NCBI GenBank assembly: GCA_016793885.1
Contig: JAEUHE010000012.1
Span: forward strand, 1 to 64,000
Reading direction: 5' to 3'
From: Verrucomicrobiales bacterium
Lineage (GTDB): Bacteria; Verrucomicrobiota; Verrucomicrobiia; Limisphaerales; UBA11320
DNA: 64,000 bases
Part shown: piece after piece, positions 23,410 to 52,797 of the stretch
Layout: each line of letters begins with the position of its first letter
Position numbering within the stretch: position 1 is the first letter of the stretch
Notes under the pieces: model-generated
What the model was told of the DNA's origin: nothing
Databases searched by the model: none
Seen by the model: only the letters and a program-made list of their open reading frames with translations
Position numbers and translations under genes: made by a program

Positions 23410-24434
23410 TTGGGCTGGCGACTGCCGATGAGCGATCGAAACCAGGTTCGGGCGATCAGCGCCAGTTTTTGAAAACGATTCAGGCGGATTAGTTCAGGTT
23501 GAAACACATTGAACTCGGCGCGTTCCAGTTTCTCCAATAGACGCCAATAAACCGAGCCCATGAGTTCCGCGGCCACCATCGATCGGCGGTCTTCCTCGGG
23601 GAGTGCTTGAGCCGCTTGGCGATAGAAGGCCCGGGCCCGATCCGCGACAGATCGAGCCAATTGCCGGTAGGCTTGGGAGTATTGGTGGGCGAGGATCGAA
23701 TCTGTAGTGACCCCGAACCGTTGTAGATCCTCTTGGGGAAGATAAATTCTTCCGCGTTCCGCGTCGCCCTTCACATCACGAAGAATGTTGGTGAGTTGCA
23801 GCGCTTTACCCAAATGCAGGGCGTACTCGCGGCAGCGGGGATTGTGGTAGCCAAAGATCTCGATGCTGAGCAGCCCGACCACGGAGGCCACTCGATAGCA
23901 GTATTCCTCGAGATCCGCCTGGGTATGGTAGCGGGTGATTTCAAGGTCCATCTCGCAGCCGCGAATGAGTTCGCTGAAGAGTTCGAAAGTCAGGCCGTAT
24001 CCTCGGATGACCGGTTGGAGCTCCCGATTGACTGGAAACTTGGGAGTGCCCTCCGGCTGACACGCAAGTTTGACGTCCTGACGCCAAGCTTCGAGTTGAC
24101 GGCGCCGCTCAGGAATGGGGACCTCTTCGTTATCGGCAACATCATCGACCTCGCGGCAAAATGCATAGAGAGCAGCCATGGCATCCCGCCGGGGTTTGGG
24201 GAGTAGCACGAAGGCGAGAGCCAGATTGGATGCGCTTTTCTTGGTAATTTGCTGGCTCTGTTCCACATCCAGCTCTTTGGGGGCGGCGGGGGATGAGTCT
24301 CGAGGTGCGGTGGTTTGGCTGGAGGGAGGGGTGGAAGCGGCGGATGATGACTCAACAACTTCTGCGACCCCGCCCTTGCCTGGCAAGGTAGGGGACTCAG
24401 ATCGGCCGTGAGGCTGCCCGGTGCTTCGAGTCAT
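23400..24434 (-). CDS. Squalene/phytoene synthase-family enzyme (HpnD/CrtM-like)
   Basis: Trans-isoprenyl diphosphate synthase that joins two prenyl diphosphates head-to-head. Both aspartate-rich metal motifs are present: AFCREVDDVADN and NILRDVKGDAERGRIYLPQEDL. RIYLP and the spacing resemble HpnD (presqualene diphosphate synthase) and CrtM. A disordered Ser/Pro-rich N-terminus of about 60 residues is unusual. ATG at 24434 gives 344 residues; a GTG at 24473 would add 13. It is the last gene of the operon with the two-component system. It is the only candidate in the window to feed the C30 carotenoid genes at 45-53 kb; hopanoid or squalene synthesis is an equally plausible role. Confidence 0.85.
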   Translation of the reverse strand: MTRSTGQPHGRSESPTLPGKGGVAEVVESSSAASTPPSSQTTAPRDSSPAAPKELDVEQSQQITKKSASNLALAFVLLPKPRRDAMAALYAFCREVDDVADNEEVPIPERRRQLEAWRQDVKLACQPEGTPKFPVNRELQPVIRGYGLTFELFSELIRGCEMDLEITRYHTQADLEEYCYRVASVVGLLSIEIFGYHNPRCREYALHLGKALQLTNILRDVKGDAERGRIYLPQEDLQRFGVTTDSILAHQYSQAYRQLARSVADRARAFYRQAAQALPEEDRRSMVAAELMGSVYWRLLEKLERAEFNVFQPELIRLNRFQKLALIARTWFRSLIGSRQPNYG

Positions 24435-24493
24435 GCTGCGTTCCAACCTCGATGTCAGCCTACCCGGGGGCACTAGTAAAGCTCAACCCGAGC

Positions 24494-38000: not shown

Positions 38001-38638
38001 ATCCTGAAAATCGGCTACTGTCGCACGGGCCGCGGAAACGGTTGGACGCGGAGATGGTGCGGGATGCCGCCCTGCGGGCCTCGGGGCTGCTTCAGCCCAC
38101 CATCGGTGGCCCCAGCGTGTATCCGCCGCAGCCGGCAGCGGTCACGTCGGAAGGGACTTATGGAGCCATGGGATGGACAGCCAGTACGGGTCCGGACCGA
38201 TATCGTCGAGGCCTCTACGTGTTTGCCAAGCGGACGGCGCCGTTCGCGATGTTCAACACTTTCGATGGGCCCAGCGGTGAGGCGTGCGTGGCTCGTCGCG
38301 AACGATCCAATACACCCCTCCAGGCCCTGACTCTCCTCAACGATCAGGTCTTTGTGGAGATTGCCCAGGCCTTTGGGGCCCTCCTGGTTAAGGCTGGCGG
38401 GACGGACCAAAGTCGTATCGAGTCATTGTTTGAACGGAGCTTGAGCCGTCGTCCGACCGATCGGGAGGTTCAGGTGCTGCTTCGTTTTGCGGAGGTTCAG
38501 CGTGGACGCATCCAGCGCGGGGAGATGGACTCCCGGAGCGTGGCGGGGGGTGGGGAAGGGGATGTTGGGGAGCGAGCCGTGTGGACTTTGCTGGCGCGGC
38601 TGGTCTTCAACCTCGACGAATTTATCACGCAAGGTTGA
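35012..38638 (+). CDS. PSCyt1/DUF1549/DUF1553 cytochrome-type exported protein
   Basis: A 1208-residue periplasmic protein. Signal peptide (residues about 15-32), a planctomycete-type cytochrome c domain with CFRCH at 54-58 and PGRLDQSHLVARLFSEDPDEVMPPPE, then DUF1549 (about 160-370) with LARYADTNGYEKDR and a second CAQCH motif at 343-347, a central beta-rich region with two similar halves (about 420-760), and DUF1553 (about 890-1170). The second CxxCH may bind another haem. Found almost only in PVC bacteria, next to DUF1501 genes; roles in degradation of complex polymers are suspected but unproven. Two bases separate it from the DUF1501 partner. Confidence 0.88.
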   Translation: MPLSIVLIRSRRSPRFAWVLLLLSVAALAEAAGPGDTVGPSFSREIRPILSDRCFRCHGPDENHRKGGLRLDLPEEASRELKSGRRAIVPGRLDQSHLVARLFSEDPDEVMPPPETKKPLTAEQKDLLKRWVASGARYEQHWAFQPPRAAALPTVRDSGWVRNGIDSFILARLESEGLSPSPPADKSALARRVSLDLIGLPPTAEELSAFLADSSPQAYESLVDRLLRSPHYGERWARPWLDLARYADTNGYEKDRARSIWPYRDWVIRALNRDLPFDQFTIEQLAGDLLPDPTVDQRVATGFHRNTMRNEEGGIDPLEFRFHAMNDRVATTGTTWLGLTLQCAQCHTHKYDPIPHREYYQVMACLNNADEPDLDLPDQKLEATWKQNQEEAARRLAALADKWPLDVIRWETPRDGSAQDESKRPARLLEDGSFLFQGKPEERDVYTLRFSSSARGVDQLRLEALTDPSLPSKGPGRTPHGNFVLSEIQVFAAPLSDASAALRLLKIVSATADVEQPGFLISAAVDGDEATGWAVHDPRKTLNSAKVGYFSFEAPVGHEGGTRYEVRLVQRYGGAHLIGRLRVGLGIPSADTRAVAVRRQEAMQQSFQNWLTRERRSLVDWRPVRPVELRSNLPILSLEPDGSIFVSGDITKHDTYELAFRDLPPRVTAVRLEVLPDDRLPAHGPGMTYYEGPPGDFFLSELELVASGQPCKISKASHSYAKTGLGADNVGAQRAIDGDLQTGWSCAGRMGERHQAVFVLEAPLEPTGDLRVKMQFWRHYAASLGRFRLSVTADPRGADARDLPEEMERLLRKPSEELTSSERQELLNQFLLSSPELANEAEQIRRLRRRPAATTTLVMRERPAGHPRPTFVHHRGEYLQPKEAVEPGVLSILNPLPSGSTRDRLGLARWLVSPENPLTARVVMNRNWALVFGTGLVKTVQDFGFQGDLPSHPELLDWLALEFVRQGWSVKAMHRLMVTSATYRQTSQRTELAGQRDPENRLLSHGPRKRLDAEMVRDAALRASGLLQPTIGGPSVYPPQPAAVTSEGTYGAMGWTASTGPDRYRRGLYVFAKRTAPFAMFNTFDGPSGEACVARRERSNTPLQALTLLNDQVFVEIAQAFGALLVKAGGTDQSRIESLFERSLSRRPTDREVQVLLRFAEVQRGRIQRGEMDSRSVAGGGEGDVGERAVWTLLARLVFNLDEFITQG

Positions 38639-38640
38639 CC

Positions 38641-40083
38641 ATGAAATTGCACACATTTTCTCCGCTCGACACTTCCCGGCGGCACTTTCTCCGCGAGTGC
38701 GGTTATGGATTGGGCAAGCTTGGCCTGGCCGGGCTATTGACCGGGCAGCTGGGGCTTTCGGCGGGAGCGAAGATTCTTCCCAAGGATGCGTTGGCCGTGC
38801 GCCAGCCGCACTCGGCTCCGAAAGCCAAGCAGGTGATTCATCTGTTCATGGCCGGGGCTCCCAGCCATTTGGAGTTGTTTGACCACAAGCCCGAGCTCGC
38901 GCGCCTCCAGGGCAAGCCGATTCCACCGAGCGTGATCGGCGGTCAGCGCTACGCCTTTATCAAATCGGACGCCGCGGTTCTGGGACCCCAGTTCAAGTTC
39001 GGGCGGTATGGCCGGTCGGGCATTGAGCTGAGCGAGGTCTTGCCGCATCTGTCCAAAGTGGTCGACGATCTGTGCCTGGTGCGGTCGGTGCGCACGGACC
39101 AGTTCAATCATGCCCCGGCTCAGATGTTGTTCCAGACGGGGTTTCCCGTACCGGGCCGGCCGAGTCTGGGTTCTTGGGCGCTGTATGGGCTCGGATCGGA
39201 AACCCAAAACCTGCCGGCGTTTGTGGTGATGTCGACGGGGGCAGGGATCAGTGGAGGTCCGGCCCTGTGGTCCAGCGGATTCCTTCCCACCATCTATACC
39301 GGGGTCCGGTTTCGTAACTCCGGCGATCCTATTCTGAACATGACCAATCCCGCGGGAGTGGATCGAGTCATTCAGCGAGACACTTTGGATGTGGTGGGGG
39401 CCTTGAATCAGGAGCGTTTGGGAGTGGTTGGCGACCCGGAAATCGCAACCCGCATTTCTCAGTATGAGATGGCGTTTCGCATGCAAACCTCGGCGCCGGA
39501 GTTGACGGATCTCCGGAGCGAGAGTCGCGCGACGTTGGAGCTGTATGGCTGCGACCCTGACAAACCGTCCTTTGCGCGTGCCTGCCTGTTGGCTCGGCGG
39601 ATGATTGAGCGCGGGGTGCGGTTTGTGAACATCTTTCACGAGGGCTGGGATGCTCATTCCGATGTAGCCGGCAATGTGAAGGATAATTGTAATAAGACGG
39701 ATCGGGCATCGGCCGCACTCATCACCGATCTGAAGCAACGGGGGCTTCTTGACGAGACCTTGGTGGTGTGGGGAGGTGAGTTTGGCCGAACCCCTATGGT
39801 CGAGACCAATCCGACGTTGGGGCGTGCTCAGGGTCGGGATCATCATCCGCAGGCCTTTTCTCTCTGGATGGCGGGCGGAGGAGTCAAGGCGGGAACGACC
39901 TTTGGAGCCACGGACGATCTGGGTTTTCATGCGGTGGATAACCCGGTTCATGTTCACGATATTCAAGCCACGATCCTCCACCTGCTGGGGTTCGATCACG
40001 AGCGGCTCACCTTCCATTTCCAGGGGCGGGATTATCGACTGACTGATATCCACGGTAAAGTTGTCGCCGGGCTGCTGGCCTAG
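38641..40083 (+). CDS. DUF1501 Tat-exported protein, DUF1549/1553 partner
   Basis: A 480-residue DUF1501 protein with Tat signal TSRRHFLRECGYGLGKLGLAGLL (twin Arg 13-14). Motifs: IHLFMAGAPSHLELFDHKPEL, VRSVRTDQFNHAPAQMLFQTG, FHEGWDAHSDV, VVWGGEFGRTPMVE and GRDHHPQAFSLWMAGGG. This longer variant has the QxxLFDHKP form typical of copies paired with PSCyt1 proteins. ATG at 38641 is preferred over the upstream in-frame codon at 38581, which lies inside the preceding gene. The final codons and stop overlap the start of an inverted repeat. Confidence 0.9.
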   Translation: MKLHTFSPLDTSRRHFLRECGYGLGKLGLAGLLTGQLGLSAGAKILPKDALAVRQPHSAPKAKQVIHLFMAGAPSHLELFDHKPELARLQGKPIPPSVIGGQRYAFIKSDAAVLGPQFKFGRYGRSGIELSEVLPHLSKVVDDLCLVRSVRTDQFNHAPAQMLFQTGFPVPGRPSLGSWALYGLGSETQNLPAFVVMSTGAGISGGPALWSSGFLPTIYTGVRFRNSGDPILNMTNPAGVDRVIQRDTLDVVGALNQERLGVVGDPEIATRISQYEMAFRMQTSAPELTDLRSESRATLELYGCDPDKPSFARACLLARRMIERGVRFVNIFHEGWDAHSDVAGNVKDNCNKTDRASAALITDLKQRGLLDETLVVWGGEFGRTPMVETNPTLGRAQGRDHHPQAFSLWMAGGGVKAGTTFGATDDLGFHAVDNPVHVHDIQATILHLLGFDHERLTFHFQGRDYRLTDIHGKVVAGLLA

Positions 40084-40536: not shown

Positions 40537-40825
40537 ATGGGGAGGGCTATTCCCTTGTGCATTGTTTGCACGCTCAGGCGCAAGTTTGCGCACCTCTTGC
40601 GCGAGACGAGGCCACGCATCGCCTGATTTGTTGGGTTTTTTGCCCTGGAACGAGGATTGCTTAATGGATCTTGCCTCCAATACCGCGGTCGAGTCCGACG
40701 ATCGGTTTGGTTTGGAACGGTGTTGGGTTCTCTCAGGTTAAGTTTCGCTTTAAGGCGGGATCGCCGGGATGAGACTCTCCGAGTGAAACGATTGGCACAG
40801 GCTTGCTCCGTCTATTGCTTTGAAA

Positions 40826-42796
40826 ATGAACACGGGTCTTTGGTCGCTTTCTCAGATTCGGTGGATGGTTTGCGTTGCCTTGCTGGCAGGTGTCAGCGGC
40901 GTGGTCGCTAAGGAGGCTTCACAATCCGGGGGGGCTCAGGTTTATCGGCGGACGAATCTCTTCTCGATCCATCTCACCTTCACGCCGGAGCAGTGGGGGG
41001 CCATGGAACCAAAGGGTGGCGACCGTGGTCCATTTGGCGGAGGCGGACGAGGGGGCGGTCGGGGTGGATTCGGCCCGGCGATGGTTCTCGCGCCTGGGTT
41101 TGTCTCGCAAGGCGACGTCGACCGGAACGGGAAACTTTCCAAAGAGGAGTTCACCGGATTGGCCGATCGCTGGTTCTCCGCGTGGGACAAGGACAATACC
41201 GGGCAACTCACTTCTCAGCAGGTCAGCCTGGGGATTTCTGCGTCCATGCCGTTGCCTGGCGGTGGTCCTGGGGGTCCTGGTGGCATGAATCTTCAAGGCG
41301 CGGAAGGTAAGCGCAACGGTCTGGCATCGGCTGCCGGAGTTGAGTTCAACTATGTCCGAGCGTCGCTGGCTATTGACGGTCAGGAGTTCAAGGAGGTGGC
41401 TGTTCGCTATAAAGGAAATGGGACCTTTATGGAGTCCCGTGGCCAGCTAAAGCGATCGATGAAGATCGATTTGAACGAGTACACCAAGGGGCAGAAGTTC
41501 TTTGGCCTGACCACCCTGAACCTGCACAACAACGTGACTGACCCTAGTTGGATGAATGAGCCGTTGAGCTACCAATTGTTTCGCGACGCTGGAGTTCCGG
41601 CGCCGAGGAATGCCTATGCTCAGGTGTTCGTGACGGTGCCGGGACAATACGATCGGACCTATCTGGGGCTGTACACTCTCATCGAGAACCCCGACAAAAA
41701 TTTTGCTGAGGAGCAGATCGGGGAGAAGAAGGGCGCAATCTTCAAGCCGGTGGCTCGGGTTCTGTTTGATGACTTGGGGGACGACTGGTCTCAGTATCAA
41801 CAGACATTTGACCCTAAGCAGACGTTGACCCAGGAGCAGAAGCAGCGGGTGATCGATCTTTGCAAGTGGGTGTCCCGCAGCAGTGATGAGGAGTTTGCTC
41901 AGAACATTCATAAGTTCCTCGATCTTCCCGAGTTCGCCAGCTTCATGGCCGTCACGGTCTGGCTCGCGAACATGGATAGCATCCTGGCTTTGGGACAGAA
42001 TTTCTTGGTTTACCTGCATCCCAAATCTCAGCAGTTCCAATTCTGGCCTTGGGATCTGGACCATTCATTTGGGCAGTTTCCTATGGTTGGAACCCAGGAT
42101 CAACGGGAACAGTTGAGCATTCAAAAGCCCTGGCAGGGAGAAAATCGTTTCTTGGAGCGGGTGTTTCGGGTGGAGGCGTTCAAGAAGCTCTACCTGGAGA
42201 GGATGTCGCAGTTAAGCACGAGCGTGTTCAGTCCCGAACGAATCCATGGCCAAATTGAGGAGTTGGCCCAGGTGATCCGTCCCTCCGTGGAGAAGGAGTC
42301 CCAGGAGAAGCTCGAGGTCTTCAACAAGGTGGTGGCTGGTGAGGCGGTACGACGAGCACGGGGTGGTGGGCCAGGTCCCGGCGGCCCGGAACCGGGCAGG
42401 GGCGAAGGGCCTGGGTTTAACCCGGGCATGTTCGGTGACCCTCCCAAGCCGATTCGTACCTTTGTCACCGCGCGTTCTCAATCGGTATCTGACCAATTGG
42501 CCGGCAAATCCCCGGGTCTTCAAATCGACCGAATGGGTTTTGGTGGCCGTGGACGGGGAGGCCGGCCGGGTGGACCGGGTGGACCGGGTGGACCGGGTGG
42601 ACCGGGCGAGTTCATCGGCCGAACCTTCTTCGATGCCTTGGACGCGGACAAGAACGGCTCACTGAGTCGGGCGGAGTTTCGAACTGGATTTTCGAAGTGG
42701 TTTGGGGCTTGGGATGGCGATGCCGATGGGGTTTTGACTGAGGACCAATTGCGAGCAGGCATCAATCAAGATTTGAGTCCTTTCCGGGGGCGTTGA
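40826..42796 (+). CDS. CotH-kinase-like secreted protein with EF-hands
   Basis: A 656-residue exported protein (signal about residues 12-28). Four EF-hand loops flank the CotH fold: DVDRNGKLSKEEF and DKDNTGQLTSQQV at about 92-130, and DADKNGSLSRAEF and DGDADGVLTEDQL at the C-terminus. The CotH region (about 175-490) contains AVRYKGNGTF, MKIDLNEYTKGQKFFGL, YLGLYTLIENPDKNF and FWPWDLDHSFG, the atypical protein kinase motifs known from spore-coat CotH. Gly-rich tracts, including a tandem GGP repeat (42567-42605), separate the modules. It may phosphorylate envelope proteins or bind calcium outside the cell. ATG at 40826 is used; a TTG two codons earlier is possible. Transcribed alone. Confidence 0.82.
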   Translation: MNTGLWSLSQIRWMVCVALLAGVSGVVAKEASQSGGAQVYRRTNLFSIHLTFTPEQWGAMEPKGGDRGPFGGGGRGGGRGGFGPAMVLAPGFVSQGDVDRNGKLSKEEFTGLADRWFSAWDKDNTGQLTSQQVSLGISASMPLPGGGPGGPGGMNLQGAEGKRNGLASAAGVEFNYVRASLAIDGQEFKEVAVRYKGNGTFMESRGQLKRSMKIDLNEYTKGQKFFGLTTLNLHNNVTDPSWMNEPLSYQLFRDAGVPAPRNAYAQVFVTVPGQYDRTYLGLYTLIENPDKNFAEEQIGEKKGAIFKPVARVLFDDLGDDWSQYQQTFDPKQTLTQEQKQRVIDLCKWVSRSSDEEFAQNIHKFLDLPEFASFMAVTVWLANMDSILALGQNFLVYLHPKSQQFQFWPWDLDHSFGQFPMVGTQDQREQLSIQKPWQGENRFLERVFRVEAFKKLYLERMSQLSTSVFSPERIHGQIEELAQVIRPSVEKESQEKLEVFNKVVAGEAVRRARGGGPGPGGPEPGRGEGPGFNPGMFGDPPKPIRTFVTARSQSVSDQLAGKSPGLQIDRMGFGGRGRGGRPGGPGGPGGPGGPGEFIGRTFFDALDADKNGSLSRAEFRTGFSKWFGAWDGDADGVLTEDQLRAGINQDLSPFRGR

Positions 42797-42972: not shown

Positions 42973-43185
42973 TCACAGCTTGGTTTTGATTCCGCAGGCC
43001 CGCATCACGCACCAGCCGCGGGCCGCTTCGAAGAGGACAAATAAACTGGAGGCGAGCAGCACGAGTCCCAGCCAGGGCGCGTAGCTAAATCCGAACCAGG
43101 CGCCTGCCAGCAGGGCGAGTCCTCCGGCTCCACGGAGCAGGCGGCCACCGGTGCCGATATTGGGAGAGAAGAAGTGCTGTTTCAC
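42973..43185 (-). CDS. DUF2892-family small membrane protein
   Basis: A 70-residue protein with two membrane helices (about residues 19-33 and 38-53) and the DUF2892 pattern: N-terminal NIGTGGRLLRGAGGLALLAG and C-terminal ARGWCVMRACGIKTKL with the conserved Trp-Cys. The family occurs as the C-terminal part of rhodanese proteins such as YgaP and as stand-alone proteins; function unknown. Its start overlaps the CarH stop by 4 bp (ATGA), so it is made together with the light-sensing repressor. Confidence 0.75.
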   Translation of the reverse strand: MKQHFFSPNIGTGGRLLRGAGGLALLAGAWFGFSYAPWLGLVLLASSLFVLFEAARGWCVMRACGIKTKL

Positions 43186-44129
43186 GCGGCTCCTTGTTTG
43201 GCGGGCCTGCGCAGCTGATCCAGGGTGCTGCAGAGAGCGTTCAGATCGGCGATGAGAAAAGCGCCGATGCTTTCGATAGACATTCGATAGGCTTCTGCGG
43301 CTCGTCCCCCCACGATCAATGACACCTCCGGGGGGAGAAGCTGGCGGAGCCGGCGGAGTTCGTGGTCCATCTGCGGGTCATCCTCTGGATACACAATGCT
43401 GAGCGCGACCGCCCGGACGCCATTTTGTAGTGCGGCCCCGGCGATCTCTGCCGCCGGCAGGCTGGCTCCCAAATAAATCACCCGCCATCCCAGATTGGTC
43501 GCCGCCGCGTACACCAGGAGCGCTCCTAGTTCGTGCAGTTGCCCGGCCGGTGTCGCGACAATCAGCCTTGCGTGCTGATTCGCGCTCACGAAGGGGCTTA
43601 CCCCTTTGCCCAGGAAGGTTCGAATCACGCCCGTGGCAAAGTGCTCATGTGCCGCAGTGAGTTCCCCAGCGCGCCAGAGGGTGCCGAGACGTTGAACCAG
43701 GGGGCCTACCACCTGCTGAAGCAGGCCCTGGGCCCCCAATTTAACATTTCCAGCCTGCAGCGCATGGTTGAGGGCTGTTGAGTCCAGCTCTCGGGTCGCC
43801 CTCAGGCATTCTGCGAGGAAGGACTCCGCTGAGCTCAGCGTCTTCTCTTCCTCCCCTAGTCGTGTGCCGCCGGGGGCAGGTTCATTCTCCACTAGGCTCC
43901 TGAGCCGTTCCATCTCCAGGCCGGCGACATTTCCTATGCTGTGACCAGCCGCGATAACTTGCTTTAGCAGACTGAGCCGTTCCACCTCGGCCTCGGAATA
44001 AAGTCGGCGGTTGGTTTCGGTTCGGGAAGGACGAACTGCCCCATAGCGCTTTTCCCATACCCGGATCACATGGGGGCTTAGACCCGTTCTCTGAGCCACC
44101 ACTCTGATCGAATGAATCAAGTCCGACAT
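43182..44129 (-). CDS. CarH/LitR-type MerR repressor with B12-binding light-sensor domain
   Basis: Transcription regulator of 315 residues. An N-terminal MerR helix-turn-helix (residues about 7-75; IRVVAQRTGLSPHVIRVWEKRYGAVRP, then RRLYSEAEVERL) is followed by a helical cap domain and a Rossmann cobalamin domain (about 185-315). Trp152, Glu162 and His163 (LWRAGELTAAHEHF) form the W-x9-EH signature of CarH, which senses light through adenosylcobalamin, and His199 in GQLHELG is the likely lower cobalt ligand (Gln replaces the usual acidic residue two before it). In known CarH, the dark AdoCbl tetramer represses carotenoid genes and light breaks it up. ATG at 44129 is chosen; 24 upstream codons lack homology. 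It is divergent from the carotenoid operon. Confidence 0.88.
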   Translation of the reverse strand: MSDLIHSIRVVAQRTGLSPHVIRVWEKRYGAVRPSRTETNRRLYSEAEVERLSLLKQVIAAGHSIGNVAGLEMERLRSLVENEPAPGGTRLGEEEKTLSSAESFLAECLRATRELDSTALNHALQAGNVKLGAQGLLQQVVGPLVQRLGTLWRAGELTAAHEHFATGVIRTFLGKGVSPFVSANQHARLIVATPAGQLHELGALLVYAAATNLGWRVIYLGASLPAAEIAGAALQNGVRAVALSIVYPEDDPQMDHELRRLRQLLPPEVSLIVGGRAAEAYRMSIESIGAFLIADLNALCSTLDQLRRPAKQGAA

Positions 44130-44344
44130 CGTGAGTGATACGTTAGACAAAATGTAAACAGTCCGCAAGTGCCCGTCGCAAAGAATTGTAATGCAGCTCA
44201 TTATTGCAGGAAATTAATCTGAACAATATATAGACAAACATTTGACATAATCTGTACAGCTGACATATTGATGGTGAAGAGCGGATGTCATGACGGCCCG
44301 AGCCTGACCCATGCTCTCTGAATTTTGAGACGAGGAAATGCCTT
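44130..44344. promoter_or_regulatory. Divergent promoter region with CarH-operator candidates
   Basis: Minus-strand promoter candidate TTGCGG (44168-44163), 17-bp spacer, TAACGT (44145-44140) for the repressor gene. Plus-strand promoter candidate TTGACA (44242-44247), 18-bp spacer, TATTGA (44266-44271) for the sigma gene. The 17-mers TAGACAAAATGTAAACA (44144-44160) and TAGACAAACATTTGACA (44231-44247) match at 12 of 17 positions; the first fills the repressor promoter spacer, the second covers the sigma promoter -35. TGACATA occurs twice (44243, 44261) around the palindrome CTGTACAG (44252-44259). GAGGAA (44332-44337) is the ribosome site for the sigma gene. Confidence 0.5.
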
Positions 44345-45424
44345 ATGCGAACGAAACGTGCAGTTAAGCGAAGTGCTCCCAAGCGACGTTGCGGCAGTCA
44401 GCGCCCTAAAATAGTCAGCAGCCCGATTCGATCCAGTGCCCGGGGCGAAATTCTGTCCCGGACCTCGCCGGGGTTACTCGAGTTAGCGCCTCCTGACCGA
44501 GCGATGGAATTGGCTCCGTCGGCGGTGGTGGTCGACGAACCCGCGTCCACTTCTGCGGTGGTGGATGCGGAAGCTTCCTCGGAAACGGTGAAGTGGGCTG
44601 CGGCTGACCTGGTGACGCTCTACATGAGGGATGCGGGCAGGGAGCCGCTCCTGACTGCCGAGGAAGAGGTTGAACTTTCCGATCGGGTTCAGCAAGGCGA
44701 CGACCTCGCTCGAGATCGGATGATCCGCGCCAACCTTCGTCTGGTGGTCAAGATTGCCCGCGAGTATGAGCACCTAGGCCTGCCGCTCTTGGATTTGGTG
44801 AATGAGGGAAACATCGGTTTGATGACGGCGGTTGATCGTTTCGATCCCCGTAAGGGCGCCAAGTTCTCCACCTACAGCTCGCTCTGGATTCGGCAGCAGA
44901 TTCGCCGCGCCGTGGCGAACCAGGGCAAGACCATCCGGCTTCCGATCAATGTGGTGGAGAAAGTCTACCATCTCAGCCAGGCGGCTGCCCGCTTCCGAGG
45001 CCAGTATGGCCGAGACGCGAGCCATGAGGAGTTGGCTGCCGAACTCGACATGAGCCCGGCTCGAGTTCGTCAGATCCGCGAAGCTTCTGTTCGGCCGGCC
45101 TCATTGGATGCACCTCTGGGTTTGGATGATGCGAACCGCCTGGCGGACGTGATTGCCGACGAGAATGGCGAGCGTCCTGACGAACATCTGGAGCAGAAGA
45201 ACTCCCTTGAATTGCTTCGCGAAGTCCTTCCCAAACTCCCGAAGCGGCAGGCCAGCATTCTCAACCTCCGGTTTGGGCTCGACGGCAGCAACGCCAAGAC
45301 GCTTGAAGAGATCGGGGCCCTGATGGGAGTGACTCGGGAACGCATCCGCCAGTTGCAGAATCTGGCTCTTTCGAAGTTGCGCCGGCTGATGCAGCAACGT
45401 GATTTGATTTTCGTCGCCGCCTAA
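44345..45424 (+). CDS. Group 2-type sigma-70 factor, first gene of carotenoid operon
   Basis: A 359-residue RNA polymerase sigma factor. After a 75-residue basic/disordered N-terminus come region 1.2 (DLVTLYMRDAGREPLLTAEEEVELSDRV), 2.1-2.4 (RDRMIRANLRLVVKIAREYEHLGLPLLDLVNEGNIGLMTAVDRFDPRKGAKFSTYSSLWIRQQIRRAV), region 3 and 4.2 (TLEEIGALMGVTRERIRQLQNLALSKLRRLM). Region 1.1 is lacking, so it is a non-primary RpoD-like (group 2) factor. A 15-bp gap to the CrtN-like gene implies co-transcription. It probably directs polymerase to photo-oxidative stress genes, downstream of the CarH switch; ECF sigma factors play this part in myxobacteria and streptomycetes. Confidence 0.92.
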   Translation: MRTKRAVKRSAPKRRCGSQRPKIVSSPIRSSARGEILSRTSPGLLELAPPDRAMELAPSAVVVDEPASTSAVVDAEASSETVKWAAADLVTLYMRDAGREPLLTAEEEVELSDRVQQGDDLARDRMIRANLRLVVKIAREYEHLGLPLLDLVNEGNIGLMTAVDRFDPRKGAKFSTYSSLWIRQQIRRAVANQGKTIRLPINVVEKVYHLSQAAARFRGQYGRDASHEELAAELDMSPARVRQIREASVRPASLDAPLGLDDANRLADVIADENGERPDEHLEQKNSLELLREVLPKLPKRQASILNLRFGLDGSNAKTLEEIGALMGVTRERIRQLQNLALSKLRRLMQQRDLIFVAA

Positions 45425-45439
45425 AACCTGAGCCAAATC

Positions 45440-47098
45440 ATGAAGCTCGATACTGTTATTGTTGGAGCTGGGCCGGGCGGCCTGGCCACCGCTATCTTGC
45501 TGGCTGCCGCCGGTCTTCGAGTGAAGGTTTTGGAGCGCTTGCCGATCGTTGGGGGACGCACTTCCCGCATTGAATCGGAGGGCTACAAGTTCGATTTGGG
45601 ACCTACCTTTTTCCTTTACCCGAGAATTCTCGATGAGATTTTCCGAGCGGCGGGGACCTCTCTGGACGCGGAGGTGGAGATGGTCCGACTGGATCCCCAG
45701 TATCGCATTCAGTTCGGGAGTGGCGGACGGATGGACTGCACGGCGGACATTTCGCGGATGGAGAAGCAGATCGGGGAGCTCTCGCCGGCGGATGTGCCGG
45801 GGTTCCGTCGGTTTCTGACCGAGAATCGGGAGAAACTCCAGCAGATTCAACCCTGTCTAGAAAGCCCTTTCCTGGGATGGCAGGACGTGGTGAACCTGCG
45901 GTTGCTCAAGCTGTTGCCGGTGGTGCGTCCTCATCAATCGGTCGATGCTTATCTACGCCGTTTCTTCTCCGACGAGCGTGTCCGTCTGGCCTTTTGCTTC
46001 CAGTCCAAGTATTTGGGGATGTCTCCTTTCCGTTGTCCTAGCCTCTTTAGCATCCTGAGTTTCTTGGAATACGAATACGGGGTTTTCCACCCCCTCGGTG
46101 GATGTGCCGCGGTTACGGAAGCCATGGCTCGCGTGGCAACCCGGTTGGGGGTAGAAATCTGTCTCAACCAGCAGGTTAAGGGCTTCCTTTTGGAGGGGAG
46201 AAAGGCCGTCGGGGTCCGCACGGACGAGGGAGAAGTTCGTGCCTCGACCGTGGTACTCAACGCCGACTTTGCTCGGTCTATGAAGCGACTGGTGCCAAAT
46301 GAGGTCAGGCGCCGATGGACCGACGAGAAGATCGCTCGCAAGAAGTTCTCGTGCTCCACCTTCATGATGTACTTGGGGGTCGAGGGCCAATTTGATCTTC
46401 CGCACCACACCATTCACATCTCCGAGAGTTACGAACGGAATTTGGATGAGATCGAGAATCAGCATGTATTGAGCGCCGATCCGAGCTTCTACGTCCAGAA
46501 CGCCTGCGTTACGGATCCCTCCCTGGCGCCGAGGGGGCACAGCAGTCTGTACGTCCTGGCTCCCGTGACCCACCAGCATCCGAATGTGGATTGGAACCGG
46601 GAAAAAGGTCCCTTCCGGGAGCTGCTTTACCGACAGATGGCCAAGGCAGGATACGGTGATGTGGCAGGCCGGGTTAAGTATGAAAAGATCATCACTCCTG
46701 ACCAGTGGGACCAAACCTACGAAATCCACCAAGGAGCCACCTTCAACCTGGCACACACTCTCGATCAAATGCTGCATCTGCGTCCGCGGAACCGTTTCGA
46801 AGATCTGGACGGGGTCTATTTGGTGGGAGGCGGCACGCATCCAGGAAGCGGCCTGCCGGTGATTTTTGAAAGTGCCCGCATCAGCTCCCGTCTCCTGCTG
46901 GAAGACTTGGGTCGGTCGGGCTGCATGACAGCCGGTTCCGACGGCGGCGAGTCGGCACTGCCACTCGGAGGTTCCGGGGCGGTCAAATCGGTGCTCCCGG
47001 AGACCGCGGGGACCCTCCGTCGGTGGTTTGCTAGTAAGCTTAGCGGGGCGTCGAGTCCGAGCGGCGTCGCCGCATCCACCCCCAGTTCTCCTGCATGA
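45440..47098 (+). CDS. CrtN/CrtI-like carotenoid desaturase
   Basis: FAD-dependent oxidoreductase of 552 residues. The N-terminal dinucleotide fold VIVGAGPGGLATAILLAAAGLRVKVLE with GGRTSRIESEGYKFDLGPTFF, and the C-terminal GVYLVGGGTHPGSGLPVIFESA, are carotenoid desaturase hallmarks. In a crtN-ald-crtN2 arrangement the first gene usually encodes the diapophytoene or squalene desaturase. A Ser/Gly-rich tail of about 50 residues is extra. It overlaps the aldehyde dehydrogenase by 4 bp (ATGA). Which C30 substrate is used (dehydrosqualene or squalene) is not visible in the sequence. Confidence 0.85.
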   Translation: MKLDTVIVGAGPGGLATAILLAAAGLRVKVLERLPIVGGRTSRIESEGYKFDLGPTFFLYPRILDEIFRAAGTSLDAEVEMVRLDPQYRIQFGSGGRMDCTADISRMEKQIGELSPADVPGFRRFLTENREKLQQIQPCLESPFLGWQDVVNLRLLKLLPVVRPHQSVDAYLRRFFSDERVRLAFCFQSKYLGMSPFRCPSLFSILSFLEYEYGVFHPLGGCAAVTEAMARVATRLGVEICLNQQVKGFLLEGRKAVGVRTDEGEVRASTVVLNADFARSMKRLVPNEVRRRWTDEKIARKKFSCSTFMMYLGVEGQFDLPHHTIHISESYERNLDEIENQHVLSADPSFYVQNACVTDPSLAPRGHSSLYVLAPVTHQHPNVDWNREKGPFRELLYRQMAKAGYGDVAGRVKYEKIITPDQWDQTYEIHQGATFNLAHTLDQMLHLRPRNRFEDLDGVYLVGGGTHPGSGLPVIFESARISSRLLLEDLGRSGCMTAGSDGGESALPLGGSGAVKSVLPETAGTLRRWFASKLSGASSPSGVAASTPSSPA

Positions 47099-48585
47099 TT
47101 CTTGACCACGATAGCCGATCTCCCGCGTCCACCCCGATGGTCGACGACCTCGGAGCTGCGATGCGGATCACTCGCTGGGCTCAAACGGTCTGGGCCTGCA
47201 CTCCAATTCAGCAGCGCCTGCGCATCCTTCGGCGCTTTCGATCGAACGTGGCTGCTGGGGGGGCCGCCATCGCCGGCCTCAGCGCTCAGGTGCGTCAACG
47301 TCCCCTCGAGGAGGTTCTGGCCTCGGAAGTATTGCCCTTGGTGGAAGCTTGTCGGTTTTTGGAGCGTGAGGCGGCCTCCGTCCTGGCTCCTCGGCGACTG
47401 GGGGCCGCGGGCCGCCCTCTCTGGCTCGGTCGAGTTCGTACCCAGGTGACGCGCGAACCTCTCGGCGTGGTTCTGATCATTGCTCCCTCCAACTATCCAC
47501 TCTTGCTGCCCGGAGTTCAGTTACTTCAGGCCTTGGCGGCCGGGAATGCGGTATGGGTTAAGCCGGCTCCCAAAACATCCGGTCCCATTCTCAAATTGGC
47601 CTCTCTTCTTGTCGAGGCGGGCTTGGATCCGAATCTGATCAAGGTCCTGCCTGAGAGTGTCGAGTCTGCCAGGGCGGCCATGTCGGTGGGCATCGATAAG
47701 GTTTTGTTCACGGGATCTTCCAGCGCCGGCCGCGATGTCCTGGCTTTTCTGGCGCCCCGAGGCATTCCCGCGACTGTGGAGCTGAGCGGGGTTGATCCGG
47801 TGGTGATCCTTCCCGATGCCGACCTCGATTTAGCCGCCGATGCGCTGGCCTTTGGGCTTTGTCTGAACTCGGGCCGAACCTGCATGGCCCCGCGGCGGGT
47901 GTTCGTGCCTGCTGCATTGCTGTCTGCCCTGGAGGAGCGGCTCGCCACGCGGCTGAAGGCTGGTTCGGTCTCCACCCTTCCAAGTCCCCAGATTCTCCTT
48001 GTGGACGGGCACCCTCTCCGTCCGGATTCCGTGGAAGCCGGGGCACGGTGGGTGGTGGGCTCGGCGCATCGGGGGCCCGCAGTGCTCAGCGGCATTCGGC
48101 CTGACAGCCTGATTCTGCAATCCGAATGGATGTCCCCGCTCTTGGTGTTGGTGGCGGTGGGAGACGAGGACGAGGCCGTTCGGTGCGCCAATGACTGCGC
48201 CTATGCCCTGGGGGCATCCGTGTTCACCCAGGACGAAGCCGCCGGCTGGGACCTTGCCCACCGGTTGCGCGGTGGTGTGGTTTCGATCAATGACCTCATT
48301 GTGCCGACCGGCGATGCCCGGATCCCGTTTGGTGGCCGCGCTTCAAGCGGGTTCGGTGTGACCCGGGGCCCTGAGGGGCTGCTTGATCTCACCGTGCCCA
48401 AGGTGGTCACCCGCACCGCGGGGCGCTTTCGTCCTGCCTTTGCGGCCCCTCAGCCCGGGGATGCTGCGCTCTTCGGAGGCTACCTTCGTTGCGCTCACAG
48501 CTTCAGCATTTTCGACCGCTGTGCGGGTCTCTTGGAGATGCTCAAAGCCATGGCTACTCGAAGTCGAAGGAACCAAGATTTATGA
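47095..48585 (+). CDS. Carotenoid aldehyde dehydrogenase (AldH/Ald-like)
   Basis: A 496-residue NAD(P)-dependent aldehyde dehydrogenase. Evidence: APSNYPLLLPGVQLLQALAAGNAVWVKPAPKTSG, LFTGSSSAGRDVL, general base Glu in VELSGVDPVVI, catalytic Cys in NSGRTCMAPRRVF, and PFGGRASSGFGVTRGPEGLLDLT. Four-base overlaps join it to CrtN-like genes on both sides. In staphyloxanthin and methanotroph C30 pathways this enzyme oxidises diaponeurosporenal or diapolycopenal to the acid. The catalytic loop (SGRTCMAP) fits that atypical group better than housekeeping ALDHs. Role by context. Confidence 0.85.
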   Translation: MILDHDSRSPASTPMVDDLGAAMRITRWAQTVWACTPIQQRLRILRRFRSNVAAGGAAIAGLSAQVRQRPLEEVLASEVLPLVEACRFLEREAASVLAPRRLGAAGRPLWLGRVRTQVTREPLGVVLIIAPSNYPLLLPGVQLLQALAAGNAVWVKPAPKTSGPILKLASLLVEAGLDPNLIKVLPESVESARAAMSVGIDKVLFTGSSSAGRDVLAFLAPRGIPATVELSGVDPVVILPDADLDLAADALAFGLCLNSGRTCMAPRRVFVPAALLSALEERLATRLKAGSVSTLPSPQILLVDGHPLRPDSVEAGARWVVGSAHRGPAVLSGIRPDSLILQSEWMSPLLVLVAVGDEDEAVRCANDCAYALGASVFTQDEAAGWDLAHRLRGGVVSINDLIVPTGDARIPFGGRASSGFGVTRGPEGLLDLTVPKVVTRTAGRFRPAFAAPQPGDAALFGGYLRCAHSFSIFDRCAGLLEMLKAMATRSRRNQDL

Positions 48586-50165
48586 AACGTTCAGACGAAA
48601 CCAAAGTTGGAATTGTGGGTAGCGGTCTCGCTGGTTTGTCAGCGGCCTGCACGCTGGCGGCGCGCGGCTACTCGGTCGTGCTTTTCGAGCGCAACGATTG
48701 GCTGGGTGGTAAGGCGGCCCAACTCGAAGGCGATGGCTTTCGCTTTGACATGGGGCCGACCATTCTGACGATCCCCTCGGTCCTGCGGCGGGTTTTCGCG
48801 GAGGCTGGCCGGAACATGGAGGATTATCTGGATCTGATCCGACTTGATCCGCAGTGGCGGTGTTTCTTTGACGATGGGTCCAGTCTTGATTTGATCGAGG
48901 ACACGAAGCAGATGGCGGCCAGACTCGACGCCTTTGCTCCCGGCCGTGGTAGCGGAGCTGGCTATCAAGCGTTCATGTCTCTGAGCGAGCGACTGAACCA
49001 GATTTCTCAAAAGTTTTTCTTCTACAAGCCCATTGGTGGGTTGAGTGACATGTTCGACTTTAAGACCTCGTTTGACGCCGGGGTGCTTTCTGATGTTCTC
49101 GCCATGCGCATGGGTAGAACCGTGGCGTCCACTGTTCGAGCTTTTAATCCGGATCCTCGCGTCGCCCAAATGATCGACCATTACACCCAATACGTGGGGT
49201 CGTCCCCCTACGGCTCTCCGGCGGTGTTGTGTGGGATCGCACACATGCAGACGGACGAGGGGATCTGGTATCCGAAGGGAGGCACCCGCGCCGTTCCGAA
49301 CGCCCTCTTCAGGCTCGCGCAGGAGCTGGGGGTTGAGTTCCGAATGCAGGCGAGCATTGAGCAGATTCTGCATCGTGACGGCCAAGTGGTCGGAGTGCGG
49401 ACGGCGGATGGTGAGACGGTTCCTCTGTCTGCGGTGGTTTCGAATGCGGACGCTGTCCGTACGCACCGGGAACTGCTGGGTGGAAAAGTGTCCAGCCGCT
49501 TTGAGGGACGTCGCGACTATGAGCCGGCTTGCTCAGGAGTGGTTCTGTATCTTGGCTTGAATCGCAGGTACGAGCATCTAGCCCACCATGATTTCGTGTT
49601 CAGCCGCGATCCTCACGAGGAGTTCGATTGGATCTACCGGCGAGGTGAGCCGGCTCCCGACCCGACCTGCTACCTGGCGGCGACGAGCTGCACGGAGCCC
49701 GGCACCGCGCCCGAGGGCGGCGAAGCTCTCTATGTGCTGGTGCACACACCCTATCTGCGACCTCACCACGACTGGTCCGCGATGTTTCCCGCTTACCGAA
49801 AAGTCATTCTGGAAAAGCTCAAGCGTACTGGCGGCATGAAAGACATCGAGAGTCGAATCGTCTTCGAGCGTGCGTTGACACCACAGGATATTCACGATCG
49901 GTATCGGGTCTTGAACGGCGCCATCTATGGGCTGGCGAGTCATGGGCGGTTTCTCGGGGCATTCAAGCCTGGGAATCGATCGCCCGACTTGAAGGGGCTC
50001 TATCTGGCTGGCGGCGCGGCCCATCCTGGTCCTGGCATGCCCATGGTGCTCATGAGCGGATGGATCGCAGCGGACACTCTGGATCGCGATGGTTTTGTTG
50101 CTCGAGGTGATTCTCGTGGGATGGGAGAGCGAGAGGCTGTTGGAGAGGTGGCGGCTGTGCTGTGA
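48582..50165 (+). CDS. Second CrtN-like carotenoid oxidase/desaturase (CrtN2/CrtP-like)
   Basis: A 527-residue FAD oxidoreductase homologous to the gene at 45440. VGIVGSGLAGLSAACTLAARGYSVVLFERNDWLGGKAAQLEGDGFRFDMGPTILTIPSVL opens the FAD fold, and GLYLAGGAAHPGPGMPMVLMSGWIAA closes it. CrtN2/CrtP enzymes oxidise the terminal methyl groups of C30 carotenoids to aldehydes, the substrate of the adjacent dehydrogenase. The order of function between this gene and the first CrtN-like gene is inferred from position only. ATG at 48582 overlaps the dehydrogenase stop; upstream in-frame codons lie inside that gene. Confidence 0.83.
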   Translation: MKRSDETKVGIVGSGLAGLSAACTLAARGYSVVLFERNDWLGGKAAQLEGDGFRFDMGPTILTIPSVLRRVFAEAGRNMEDYLDLIRLDPQWRCFFDDGSSLDLIEDTKQMAARLDAFAPGRGSGAGYQAFMSLSERLNQISQKFFFYKPIGGLSDMFDFKTSFDAGVLSDVLAMRMGRTVASTVRAFNPDPRVAQMIDHYTQYVGSSPYGSPAVLCGIAHMQTDEGIWYPKGGTRAVPNALFRLAQELGVEFRMQASIEQILHRDGQVVGVRTADGETVPLSAVVSNADAVRTHRELLGGKVSSRFEGRRDYEPACSGVVLYLGLNRRYEHLAHHDFVFSRDPHEEFDWIYRRGEPAPDPTCYLAATSCTEPGTAPEGGEALYVLVHTPYLRPHHDWSAMFPAYRKVILEKLKRTGGMKDIESRIVFERALTPQDIHDRYRVLNGAIYGLASHGRFLGAFKPGNRSPDLKGLYLAGGAAHPGPGMPMVLMSGWIAADTLDRDGFVARGDSRGMGEREAVGEVAAVL

Positions 50166-51061
50166 GAACACTTCCCGCGAGTGCGCCGTTGGGACCTGGC
50201 CCAGTGAGGGCTGCATTGCCTCCTGCCCGGTTGGAGCCTTCTCAGGGCTCGGAGGTGCGTGTTCCTGCAGGAGGTGGCCGGCCGCCTATTTCGCCCCGGT
50301 GGGTTTCCTGGTTTACCCGTTACTCTCGGTGGTATCTCCGCCGGCACTTCCATTCCTTGCGCTGTTGTGTCGGAGATTATCCGGAGCTCCCGAGTCAGGT
50401 GCCCTGGGTGGTCTACGTAAACCACGCCTCTTGGTGGGATCCTCTGGTGGGGCTGGTTTTGAAGGATGCCTTGTTCCCCCACCGCCACCTCTATGCTCCC
50501 ATGGAGCAGGCGGCGGTGGAGCGCTATGCGATGTTCAAGAGGATGGGATTCTTTGGCGTGGAGCGTCGAACCACCCGGGGGGCGATTCGGTTCCTGCGCA
50601 CGGCGGAGGAGATTCTAGCCTCTCCCACGGCCGCCTTGAGCATCACGCCCCAGGGAAGGTTCGCGGATTGCCGGGAACGCCCCTTGCGGTGCGATCCTGG
50701 GCTCGGGGCGGTGGCCTCGCGCAGCCCGGGTGCGATCTTCCTGCCCGTGGCGATCGAGTATGTGTTCTGGGAGGAACGATTGCCCGAGATTCTTGTGCGA
50801 TTAGGTCGCCCTGATTGGGTGGTGCGGGGCCAGGATGAGAACGGTTCCGTGCGGAGCGTGGCGGAATGGACTTCTTTTTTTGAGGCGCGGATGGCGGCCA
50901 CGCAGGACGCGTTGGCTGCTGCAGCAAGCCGACGGGATCCGGATGACTTTCGATGCCTGCTGCTAGGTGGGGCAGGGCAGGGGGGTGTTTATGATCTCTG
51001 GCGTGCCATGAAATCATGGCTGCGAGGTGAACGCTTCCAGAAGGAGCATGGAGTGAGATGA
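50162..51061 (+). CDS. PlsC-like acyltransferase, CrtO-type by context
   Basis: A 299-residue lysophospholipid acyltransferase-family protein. The catalytic block is VVYVNHASWWDP (NHxxxxD); FKRMGFFGVERRTTRGAIRFLRTAEEIL and ITPQGRFAD supply the acceptor-binding block (ITPQGxR in place of the classical FPEGTR). A Pro-rich N-terminus of about 60 residues is probably disordered. GTG start overlaps the preceding stop (GTGA) and its stop overlaps the next start. In staphyloxanthin synthesis CrtO (not PlsC-related) acylates the glycosyl carotenoid; a PlsC-type enzyme is proposed here to do the same. Alternatively it acylates glycerol phosphate, but the operon argues against that. Confidence 0.78.
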   Translation: MRTLPASAPLGPGPVRAALPPARLEPSQGSEVRVPAGGGRPPISPRWVSWFTRYSRWYLRRHFHSLRCCVGDYPELPSQVPWVVYVNHASWWDPLVGLVLKDALFPHRHLYAPMEQAAVERYAMFKRMGFFGVERRTTRGAIRFLRTAEEILASPTAALSITPQGRFADCRERPLRCDPGLGAVASRSPGAIFLPVAIEYVFWEERLPEILVRLGRPDWVVRGQDENGSVRSVAEWTSFFEARMAATQDALAAAASRRDPDDFRCLLLGGAGQGGVYDLWRAMKSWLRGERFQKEHGVR

Positions 51062-52797
51062 ATTGGGAAACACTAGCTTGGATCGCGTTGGGACTGGCGT
51101 CGTGGCCTTTCCTTCTCTTTCTAGCGAACAGCCGCGTCTATCGTCCGCTGCTGCCACTGCCTCAAGAGCCCAATGAGCTGGGGCATCGGCCTGATGCTCT
51201 AAACGCTGAGTCAGCGGGAGTGAGCGTCCTGATACCTGCCCGCAACGAGGAAGCAAACCTACCTGCCACTTTGGAGTCGGTGCTCTCCAACGCGGGGGTC
51301 GATTTGGAGTTGATCGTGCTGGACGACCATTCGTCCGACCGAACTGCGGCGATTGTTCGAGAATTTCAAGCGCGTGATTCCCGGGTGCGGCTCGAGGCTG
51401 CTCCGCCCCTCCCTCCTGGCTGGTGTGGAAAGCAGCACGCCTGCCACGTTCTGTCGAGGCTATCGAACCGGCGCTGGCTGGTGTTTATGGATGCTGACGT
51501 CAGGCTCCACCCTCAAGCCTTGCAGCAAATGGTGCGTTTTATGGAGGAGTCGCGGGCGGACCTTGCCAGCGGCATTCCACGTCAGGAGACCGGATCGTTC
51601 AGTGAGAAACTGCTGATTCCGCTGATCCACTTCATTCTGCTCGGCTTCTTGCCCATGCACGCCATGAGGCGATCTGCCTCTCCCTCCTTCGCGGCGGGAT
51701 GCGGCCAACTGTTTGTGGCATGTCGGCGAGCCTACCGAGAGTGCGGAGGGCATTCCAAGATCCCGGCAACATTGCACGATGGTCTTCGCTTGCCCCGAGT
51801 CTTCCGGCAGGCCGGATTTAGAACCGACCTCTTCGATGCGACTCCGCTCGCCACCTGCCGGATGTATCGTAATGGCTCCGAGGTTTGGTGCGGGCTAGCG
51901 AAGAACGCCATTGAAGGATTGGCTGCCCCCAAGCGGATATTGCCGATGTCTTTCCTTCTCGCGGGCGGGCAGGTGTTGCCCTGGATCGTGGCTCTGGCTG
52001 GCTGGAGCGCTTTGGGTAATCTCGAGCGGGGTGCCGCCTTGACCGCTATTGCCCTAGCAATGGTTCCTCGGCTTCTTTCTGTGCGGCGGTATCATCAGTC
52101 CCTCGTGGGCGCTCTGCTGCATCCGGTGGGCATCCTGGCGCTGTTATTGATCCAGTGGTTCGCTCTGGTGCAATACGCGCTGGGCCGTCCGGCCACCTGG
52201 AAAGGGCGCAGCTATTCACCGGAGAGCGTCCGGTCTCGGCCGGCCTCGGCTGTGGGGACCGCACTGCTCCTGGGCGGGGCTCTGCTGGTGGCTTCCTCGT
52301 TCGATCTGCCTAGCTCGGGCGCGGATGCGCACTCGGCGACTGAGTTTCGTCTCGGGCGTCTGACTCTGGACGATCAGTATGGAGCGCGGCATGACCTGTC
52401 ATTCCCCGCCGCGCATATCACCGTCATGACTTGTGCCGACCGGGAAGGAGCGGCTGAGGTCTCGAAGTGGGTTTCGGCGGTGAAGTCCCTCGGTTACGAC
52501 ACTAACCAGGTGGTCCTCTGTGGGGTGGCGGATGTGAGGAAGGTGCCGTCGGTTTTGCGCGGCATGATCAGGCGCCGTTTTGTCGAGCGTTACACGCATC
52601 CCATCTTGATGGACTGGAAGGGGCAGATTGCGGGCCAGCCGTTTCTGAAGTCTGGCTCGGCAAATGTCCTACTGCTGGACCGGACGGGCCGTTTGGTGGG
52701 TCTTTTTCTGGGCGAGCCGACCCCGGGTCGCGCCCAGGAGTTGGCCGACTCCATTCGAGCGTTGATAAAAGTTAGACCAACATCCTCATCTCCTTGA
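51058..52797 (+). CDS. Membrane glycosyltransferase fused to thioredoxin-like domain
   Basis: A 579-residue protein. One N-terminal membrane span (about 5-24); a family 2 glycosyltransferase domain (about 52-290) with VSVLIPARNEEANLPATLESVL, ELIVLDDHSSDRTAAIV, FMDADVRLHP and a TLHDGLRL segment near the catalytic end; three or four C-terminal spans (about 295-425, including VGILALLLIQWFALVQYAL); then an extra soluble domain (about 435-572). The glycosyltransferase resembles CrtQ/HpnB. The extra domain (LTLDDQYGARHDLSFP, MTCADREGAAEV, HPILMDWKG, NVLLLDRTGRLVGLFLG) looks like a peroxiredoxin/YtfJ-type thioredoxin fold without CxxC, so redox catalysis is unlikely. Probable role: glycosylation of the carotenoid acid. 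Confidence 0.8.
   Translation: MNWETLAWIALGLASWPFLLFLANSRVYRPLLPLPQEPNELGHRPDALNAESAGVSVLIPARNEEANLPATLESVLSNAGVDLELIVLDDHSSDRTAAIVREFQARDSRVRLEAAPPLPPGWCGKQHACHVLSRLSNRRWLVFMDADVRLHPQALQQMVRFMEESRADLASGIPRQETGSFSEKLLIPLIHFILLGFLPMHAMRRSASPSFAAGCGQLFVACRRAYRECGGHSKIPATLHDGLRLPRVFRQAGFRTDLFDATPLATCRMYRNGSEVWCGLAKNAIEGLAAPKRILPMSFLLAGGQVLPWIVALAGWSALGNLERGAALTAIALAMVPRLLSVRRYHQSLVGALLHPVGILALLLIQWFALVQYALGRPATWKGRSYSPESVRSRPASAVGTALLLGGALLVASSFDLPSSGADAHSATEFRLGRLTLDDQYGARHDLSFPAAHITVMTCADREGAAEVSKWVSAVKSLGYDTNQVVLCGVADVRKVPSVLRGMIRRRFVERYTHPILMDWKGQIAGQPFLKSGSANVLLLDRTGRLVGLFLGEPTPGRAQELADSIRALIKVRPTSSSP

Follow-up and report, generated by a model that had tools for sequence, protein, structure and literature searches.

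The window, the whole stretch of 64,000 nucleotides analysed here, encodes on its minus strand a protein of 315 amino acids that a sequence-only reading took for a CarH-like photoreceptor with one deviation, a Gln in place of the acidic residue of the ExHxxG motif. The question raised by this locus is whether the protein is a light-responsive repressor dependent on adenosylcobalamin (AdoCbl) and, if so, whether its light switch can be that of Thermus thermophilus CarH. Translation of 43182-44129 placed Trp152, Glu162, His163, Gln197 and His199 exactly as that reading had them. A longer open reading frame with a start at 44201 exists; the relatives align from Met1 at 44129, indicating that 44129 is the right start.

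Family membership and cobalamin-site motifs

The protein has the domain order of CarH and class I LitR, an N-terminal MerR helix-turn-helix, a helix bundle and a Rossmann B12 domain, and its matches to MerR_1, B12-binding_2 and B12-binding all exceeded the Pfam cut-offs. Its top sequence match in the PDB was Thermus CarH (E about 4e-22, residues 5-312, identity about 27-29%), with the photocobilins and CtMerR ranking after it. The AlphaFold model, built from 71 input sequences, had a mean pLDDT of 91.4, and its best PDB folds in Foldseek were Thermus CarH with DNA and AdoCbl (5C8E) and CarH alone (5C8D). In a Foldseek comparison normalised to the Thermus domain, the cobalamin-binding domain of this predicted model reached a TM-score of about 0.82. 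The structural modelling against CarH that had been suggested as a check was answered in part, by a matching fold with the motif residues at equivalent alignment positions. The score against the NCBIfam CarH equivalog NF052513 was 110 bits (cut-off 400), placing the protein inside the family and outside the Thermus-type equivalog. Judged from sequence and modelled fold, the protein is a member of the CarH/LitR class I family; chance resemblance was excluded by the PDB match to CarH, the three Pfam domains and the conservation of the Trp, Glu and His residues in 83 relatives.

HMMER paired W152, E162, H163, Q197, H199 and G202 with W131, E141, H142, E175, H177 and G180 of Thermus CarH, bearing out both the proposed W-x9-EH match and the assignment of His199 to the cobalt-ligand position. 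Among 83 aligned relatives, a set in which at least one sequence is duplicated (L070/L087) and a few are fragments, Trp152 and His163 were conserved in all and Glu162, Gln197 and His199 in 82 each. The seed of the locus scan contained AHEH, and conservation was therefore recounted on profile matches picked without this seed, where it was unchanged. R23, W25, E26 and R28 of the MerR domain were kept in every relative covering them. The classic B12 motif is D/ExHx2G/Px41SxT/Vx22-27GG (PMC9304148), and its remainder is intact here (G202-x41-S244-x-V246-x27-GG274), with Gln at the first position as the sole deviation. All four SignatureFinder motifs of B12-based light sensing, GxxW (G149, W152), EH, GxxH (G196, H199) and GxxxP (G221, P225), were present and conserved.

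Table 1. Positions of the predicted features in the window
Feature	Position	Strand	Basis or remark
CarH-like AdoCbl-dependent repressor (predicted), 315 aa	43182..44129	-	translation, HMMER, Pfam, AlphaFold/Foldseek
MerR-type DNA-binding domain, residues 7-70, recognition helix R-V-W-E-K-R-Y	43920..44111	-	Pfam MerR_1 1e-15
B12-binding Rossmann domain, residues 188-283	43281..43568	-	Pfam B12-binding 2.1e-12
W152-x9-E162-H163 adenosyl-contact motif	43641..43676	-	translation and alignment of relatives
Arg153 codon, position of Thermus His132 (light-state upper cobalt ligand)	43671..43673	-	alignment
Q197-x-H199-x-x-G202 lower-ligand motif, Gln for Glu/Asp	43524..43541	-	translation and alignment
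Possible operator O2, TAGACA-N5-TAAACA, two tandem repeats	44144..44160	+	directly before the start codon of the carH-like gene
Candidate operator O1, 11-bp direct repeat nnnnTnnACAn in four perfect tandem copies	44216..44259	+	sequence pattern search
Sigma-70 promoter predicted for the divergent operon, TTGACA-N16-CATATT	44242..44269	+	10/12 matches
Accessory sigma-70 factor, RpoS/RpoD-like, encoded by the operon's first gene	44345..45424	+	Pfam/NCBIfam profile matches
CrtI-family carotenoid desaturase/oxidase	45440..47098	+	TIGR02734, 520 bits (cut-off 238)
Aldehyde dehydrogenase (AldH-like)	47095..48585	+	Pfam Aldedh 2.3e-80
Second CrtI-family desaturase/oxidase, probably starting near 48582	48489..50165	+	TIGR02734, 405 bits
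Acyltransferase-like protein	50162..51061	+	PF01553, slightly under cut-off
Family 2 glycosyltransferase with C-terminal extension	51058..52797	+	PF00535 1.8e-23
Phytoene/squalene synthase	23400-24473

Operator repeats and the divergent carotenoid operon

Published CarH operators consist of tandem 11-bp repeats, nnnnTnnACAn, overlapping the promoter hexamers, with three repeats in Thermus and four in Bacillus megaterium. The 215-bp gap between the carH-like gene and the divergent operon contains such an array (O1, Table 1), the core of which, TGAACA-N5-TAGACA-N5-TTGACA-N5-TGTACA, spans 44220-44258, and its third repeat is the consensus -35 element of the predicted divergent promoter. The array resembles the operator of B. 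megaterium in number and in its overlap with promoter elements. No array of this type was expected in the window and none arose in shuffled sequences; across the 8.7-Mb assembly, the triple-repeat pattern was found at O1 only, with no match for the reversed-pattern control. The pair of repeats in front of the carH-like gene (O2) is a possible candidate autoregulatory site.

The arrangement recurs among the relatives. A TnnACA pair spaced at 11 bp was present on the divergent strand in 62 of 84 upstream regions, the query's own counted, compared with 1-7 regions for each of the other spacings from 6 to 18 bp and five for the opposite strand at 11 bp. A spacing of 22 bp, equal to two repeats, was also raised; pairs were likewise enriched at 19 bp (24 loci of 84), a spacing outside the 11-bp series. 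The 22 regions without the divergent-strand pair included those of three relatives with Glu at the Gln197 position (L109-L111) and their neighbours L107 and L108. The shuffles, the opposite strand and the other spacings rule out an operator produced by AT-rich chance. The repeats are a line of evidence independent of the protein motifs and show, at the level of DNA pattern, that the lineage retains CarH-type DNA recognition.

The divergent genes (Table 1) form a set that, we infer, resembles the pathways to staphyloxanthin-type glycosyl carotenoid esters, and a phytoene/squalene synthase gene lies in the same window. About 150 residues extend the glycosyltransferase at its C-terminus; this extension looks redoxin-like by eye, and no Pfam match was found in it. 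Another long RpoD-like open reading frame sits on contig C131 of the assembly. Of the loci of 83 relatives, many of them short, 31 contained a sigma-factor homologue and 16-19 had CrtI-family genes. The genome encodes a PduO-type adenosyltransferase, and no BtuR-type enzyme was found in it; as AdoCbl can be made with the former, its supply in the host is plausible. Just upstream, the window also encodes a DUF1501 protein (38581-40083) and a CotH-kinase protein with EF-hand repeats (40820-42796), both apparently unrelated to a light regulon.

Many CarH-like genes of lake Verrucomicrobia metagenome-assembled genomes (within L006-L085) were divergent to a gene for a fasciclin-domain protein, often with TnnACA repeats. 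Seventeen of these divergent proteins clustered together, one of them confirmed by Pfam, and a MerR/B12 homologue on an Eleftheria terrae plasmid (L101) likewise adjoins a fasciclin gene. Seven Verrucomicrobia-type loci (L006, L013, L025, L030, L036, L070 and L079) are filed under the titles Klebsiella pneumoniae or Akkermansia muciniphila, which look wrong.

The W152-x9-EH motif, the four light signatures, the 11-bp operator and the adjoining carotenoid operon, together with the fold, make the original proposal of a CarH-like photoreceptor well supported. Thermus CarH (5C8D/5C8E/5C8F) shares with the present system the domain order, W-x9-EH, the lower-ligand His, SxV, GG, an 11-bp TnnACA tandem operator over the -35 element and divergent carotenoid genes; the operator here, however, has four perfect repeats instead of three, and its target is an operon of a sigma factor with CrtI and AldH genes. 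In Streptomyces coelicolor, the B12-based LitR similarly governs a sigma gene, litS, that drives carotenoid genes. LitS, however, is an ECF sigma factor whose transcription LitR is described as promoting, whereas here the sigma factor is an RpoS/RpoD-like protein with four regions and the operator lies over the -35 element.

Gln197 and Arg153 across the lineage

With profile-found sequences added, residue 197 was Gln in 86 of 90 relatives, Glu in three and His in one, whereas Glu occupies this position in the Thermus and proteobacterial relatives. A second phylum was sampled via the genome behind locus L076, the record titles of which conflict (Gemmatimonadaceae, Gemmatimonadetes, Latescibacterota); all 19 of its readable full CarH relatives had Gln, and its more distant B12-domain proteins had Asp. 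A tree computed without the two trait columns implied few changes at site 197, a result that is indicative only, the tree being a quick one with several long branches. The substitution noticed in the sequence-only reading is thus real and is not peculiar to this protein: as far as these alignments go, Gln197 is the standing state of a deep lineage, because it is found in both sets of relatives. Fixation across the lineage with W-x9-EH retained rules out a sequencing error, decay or a private change. No published description of a Gln-type lineage was found in a search of openly accessible papers. Two relatives depart from the common pattern in other ways. A homologue of 40% identity on plasmid 2 of Gemmatirosa kalamazoonensis (L096, 3001-3927) has no Trp, Glu or lower-ligand His (R-V-H..., GQFEELG) and is probably a B12-independent relative that retains Gln; in the relative at L040:6001-6915, the matched stretch is interrupted at its residue 13 by an in-frame stop, after which the open frame resumes.

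In cobalamin enzymes, as in the ligand triad of methionine synthase, the motif Asp or Glu bonds the ligand His and can accept its proton. Gln197 should still hydrogen-bond His199, by analogy, but should be unable to take up the proton.

The more consequential change is Arg153, which the sequence-only reading did not mention. In Thermus CarH, His132, the residue after Trp131, becomes the upper cobalt ligand upon photolysis, and the resulting bis-His ligation stabilises the light state. Position 153 was Arg or Gln in 76 of the 90 relatives. The Arg176-Asp201 salt bridge, which holds the Thermus dimer, is also gone, its equivalents here being Leu198 and Ser223; a hydrophobic residue paired with Ser, Asn or Gly was usual in the 90 relatives, and among the pair types listed a basic-acidic pair (K/D) occurred in one. 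The oligomer may therefore differ from that of Thermus. The W-x9-EH motif is retained, as had been claimed, and the sequence-only reading treated the classical mechanism as intact along with it; with His132 and the salt bridge both absent, a light state of the Thermus bis-His type could not form in the same way. A single linked change of Gln197 and His132 was ruled out, since 8 of the 19 sequences from the second phylum combine Gln with His at position 153. On its sequence, the protein is a predicted photoreceptor of a known kind, and the lineage it belongs to is a variant one in which two cobalamin-site residues are altered and the dimer salt bridge has been lost.

Proposed light state and mechanism

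An Arg at the His132 position has a published precedent in CtMerR (8JBS/8JBT), which also combines a MerR domain with a cobalamin-binding domain bearing the light signature. CtMerR binds AdoCbl, which is photolysed to hydroxocobalamin, and passes from a dark tetramer to a light monomer, its Glu166 swinging towards the cobalt in light (PMC11796333). It differs in its DNA-binding domain, and its match to the lineage profile reached only E=2.4e-17. The photocobilin SasPcob has Gln at this position and a water- or hydroxide-ligated end state. Since Arg153 takes the place of the upper-ligand His, the protein most probably ends, after illumination, in an aquo/hydroxo-Co(III) form that has Glu162 or water close to the cobalt, like CtMerR and unlike the bis-His state of Thermus CarH.

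Considering these results, we propose that the protein probably acts as a CarH-type, AdoCbl-dependent dark repressor of the sigma-factor/carotenoid operon. In the dark, His199 would hold AdoCbl base-off, the adenosyl group stacking on Trp152 and bonded by Glu162 and His163, and binding of the cofactor would lead to an oligomer on the four tandem repeats. This oligomer would cover the -35 element and block transcription of the operon, and would probably also occupy O2, the weaker pair (44144-44160) next to the start of the carH-like gene. Light in the blue-green range would break the Co-C bond and release the adenosyl group, leaving aquo/hydroxo-cobalamin; the oligomer would collapse and the operon would be transcribed, a response that the sigma factor might amplify.

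The loss of His132 could instead cripple the light switch where nothing compensates for it. The Thermus H132A variant mostly fails to monomerise in light, remaining largely tetrameric and giving a 352-nm product instead of one at 359 nm, though the reports conflict, one study finding largely no monomerisation and an earlier one disassembly. The protein here might accordingly bind AdoCbl and DNA and release DNA inefficiently on photolysis, its His132 coupling lost, serving as a sensor of AdoCbl availability or as a slow or weak light sensor. CtMerR, which requires a higher light dose than others to reach its light state, would agree with such behaviour; it still monomerises in light, however, and the carotenoid context and the conserved W-x9-EH favour a light role, so that we regard this alternative as unlikely.

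A photoreceptor that still ends in bis-His ligation, with another His replacing His132, seems quite unlikely. The most plausible substitute is His161 of A-H-E-H, since His occupies this position, Glu140 in Thermus, in 67 of 83 relatives. The residue adjoins Glu162 on the same helix, however, and probably points elsewhere, and CtMerR does without a substitute His. A B12-independent repressor like CarA, proteins of this kind keeping the B12 motif under the control of other signals, or an activator of the sigma gene like Streptomyces LitR is very improbable, because CarA has lost the Trp of W-x9-EH that is present and invariant here and because repeats overlying the -35 element fit repression.

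Within the preferred reading of a light-released AdoCbl repressor, we tentatively suggest, as a less probable extension, that a deep CarH lineage spanning several phyla has a fixed Gln beside the cobalt-binding His, which breaks the acid-His relay of cobalamin proteins. Together with the loss of His132 and the salt bridge in Verrucomicrobiota, this might give a distinct photocycle, in which the release of the adenosyl group alone, and not a switch of cobalt ligand, dismantles the repressor.

With two cobalamin-site residues swapped, the light switch of this protein must differ in detail from that of textbook CarH. The role of the bis-His switch is disputed, given the disagreement over Thermus H132A and the monomerisation of the Arg-bearing CtMerR, and a natural lineage that has Gln, no His132 and a readable operator makes its importance testable in natural proteins instead of mutants. 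The relatives would also be new candidate green-light switches for optogenetics. The predicted system would extend the B12-based light control of carotenoids via a sigma factor to Verrucomicrobiota.
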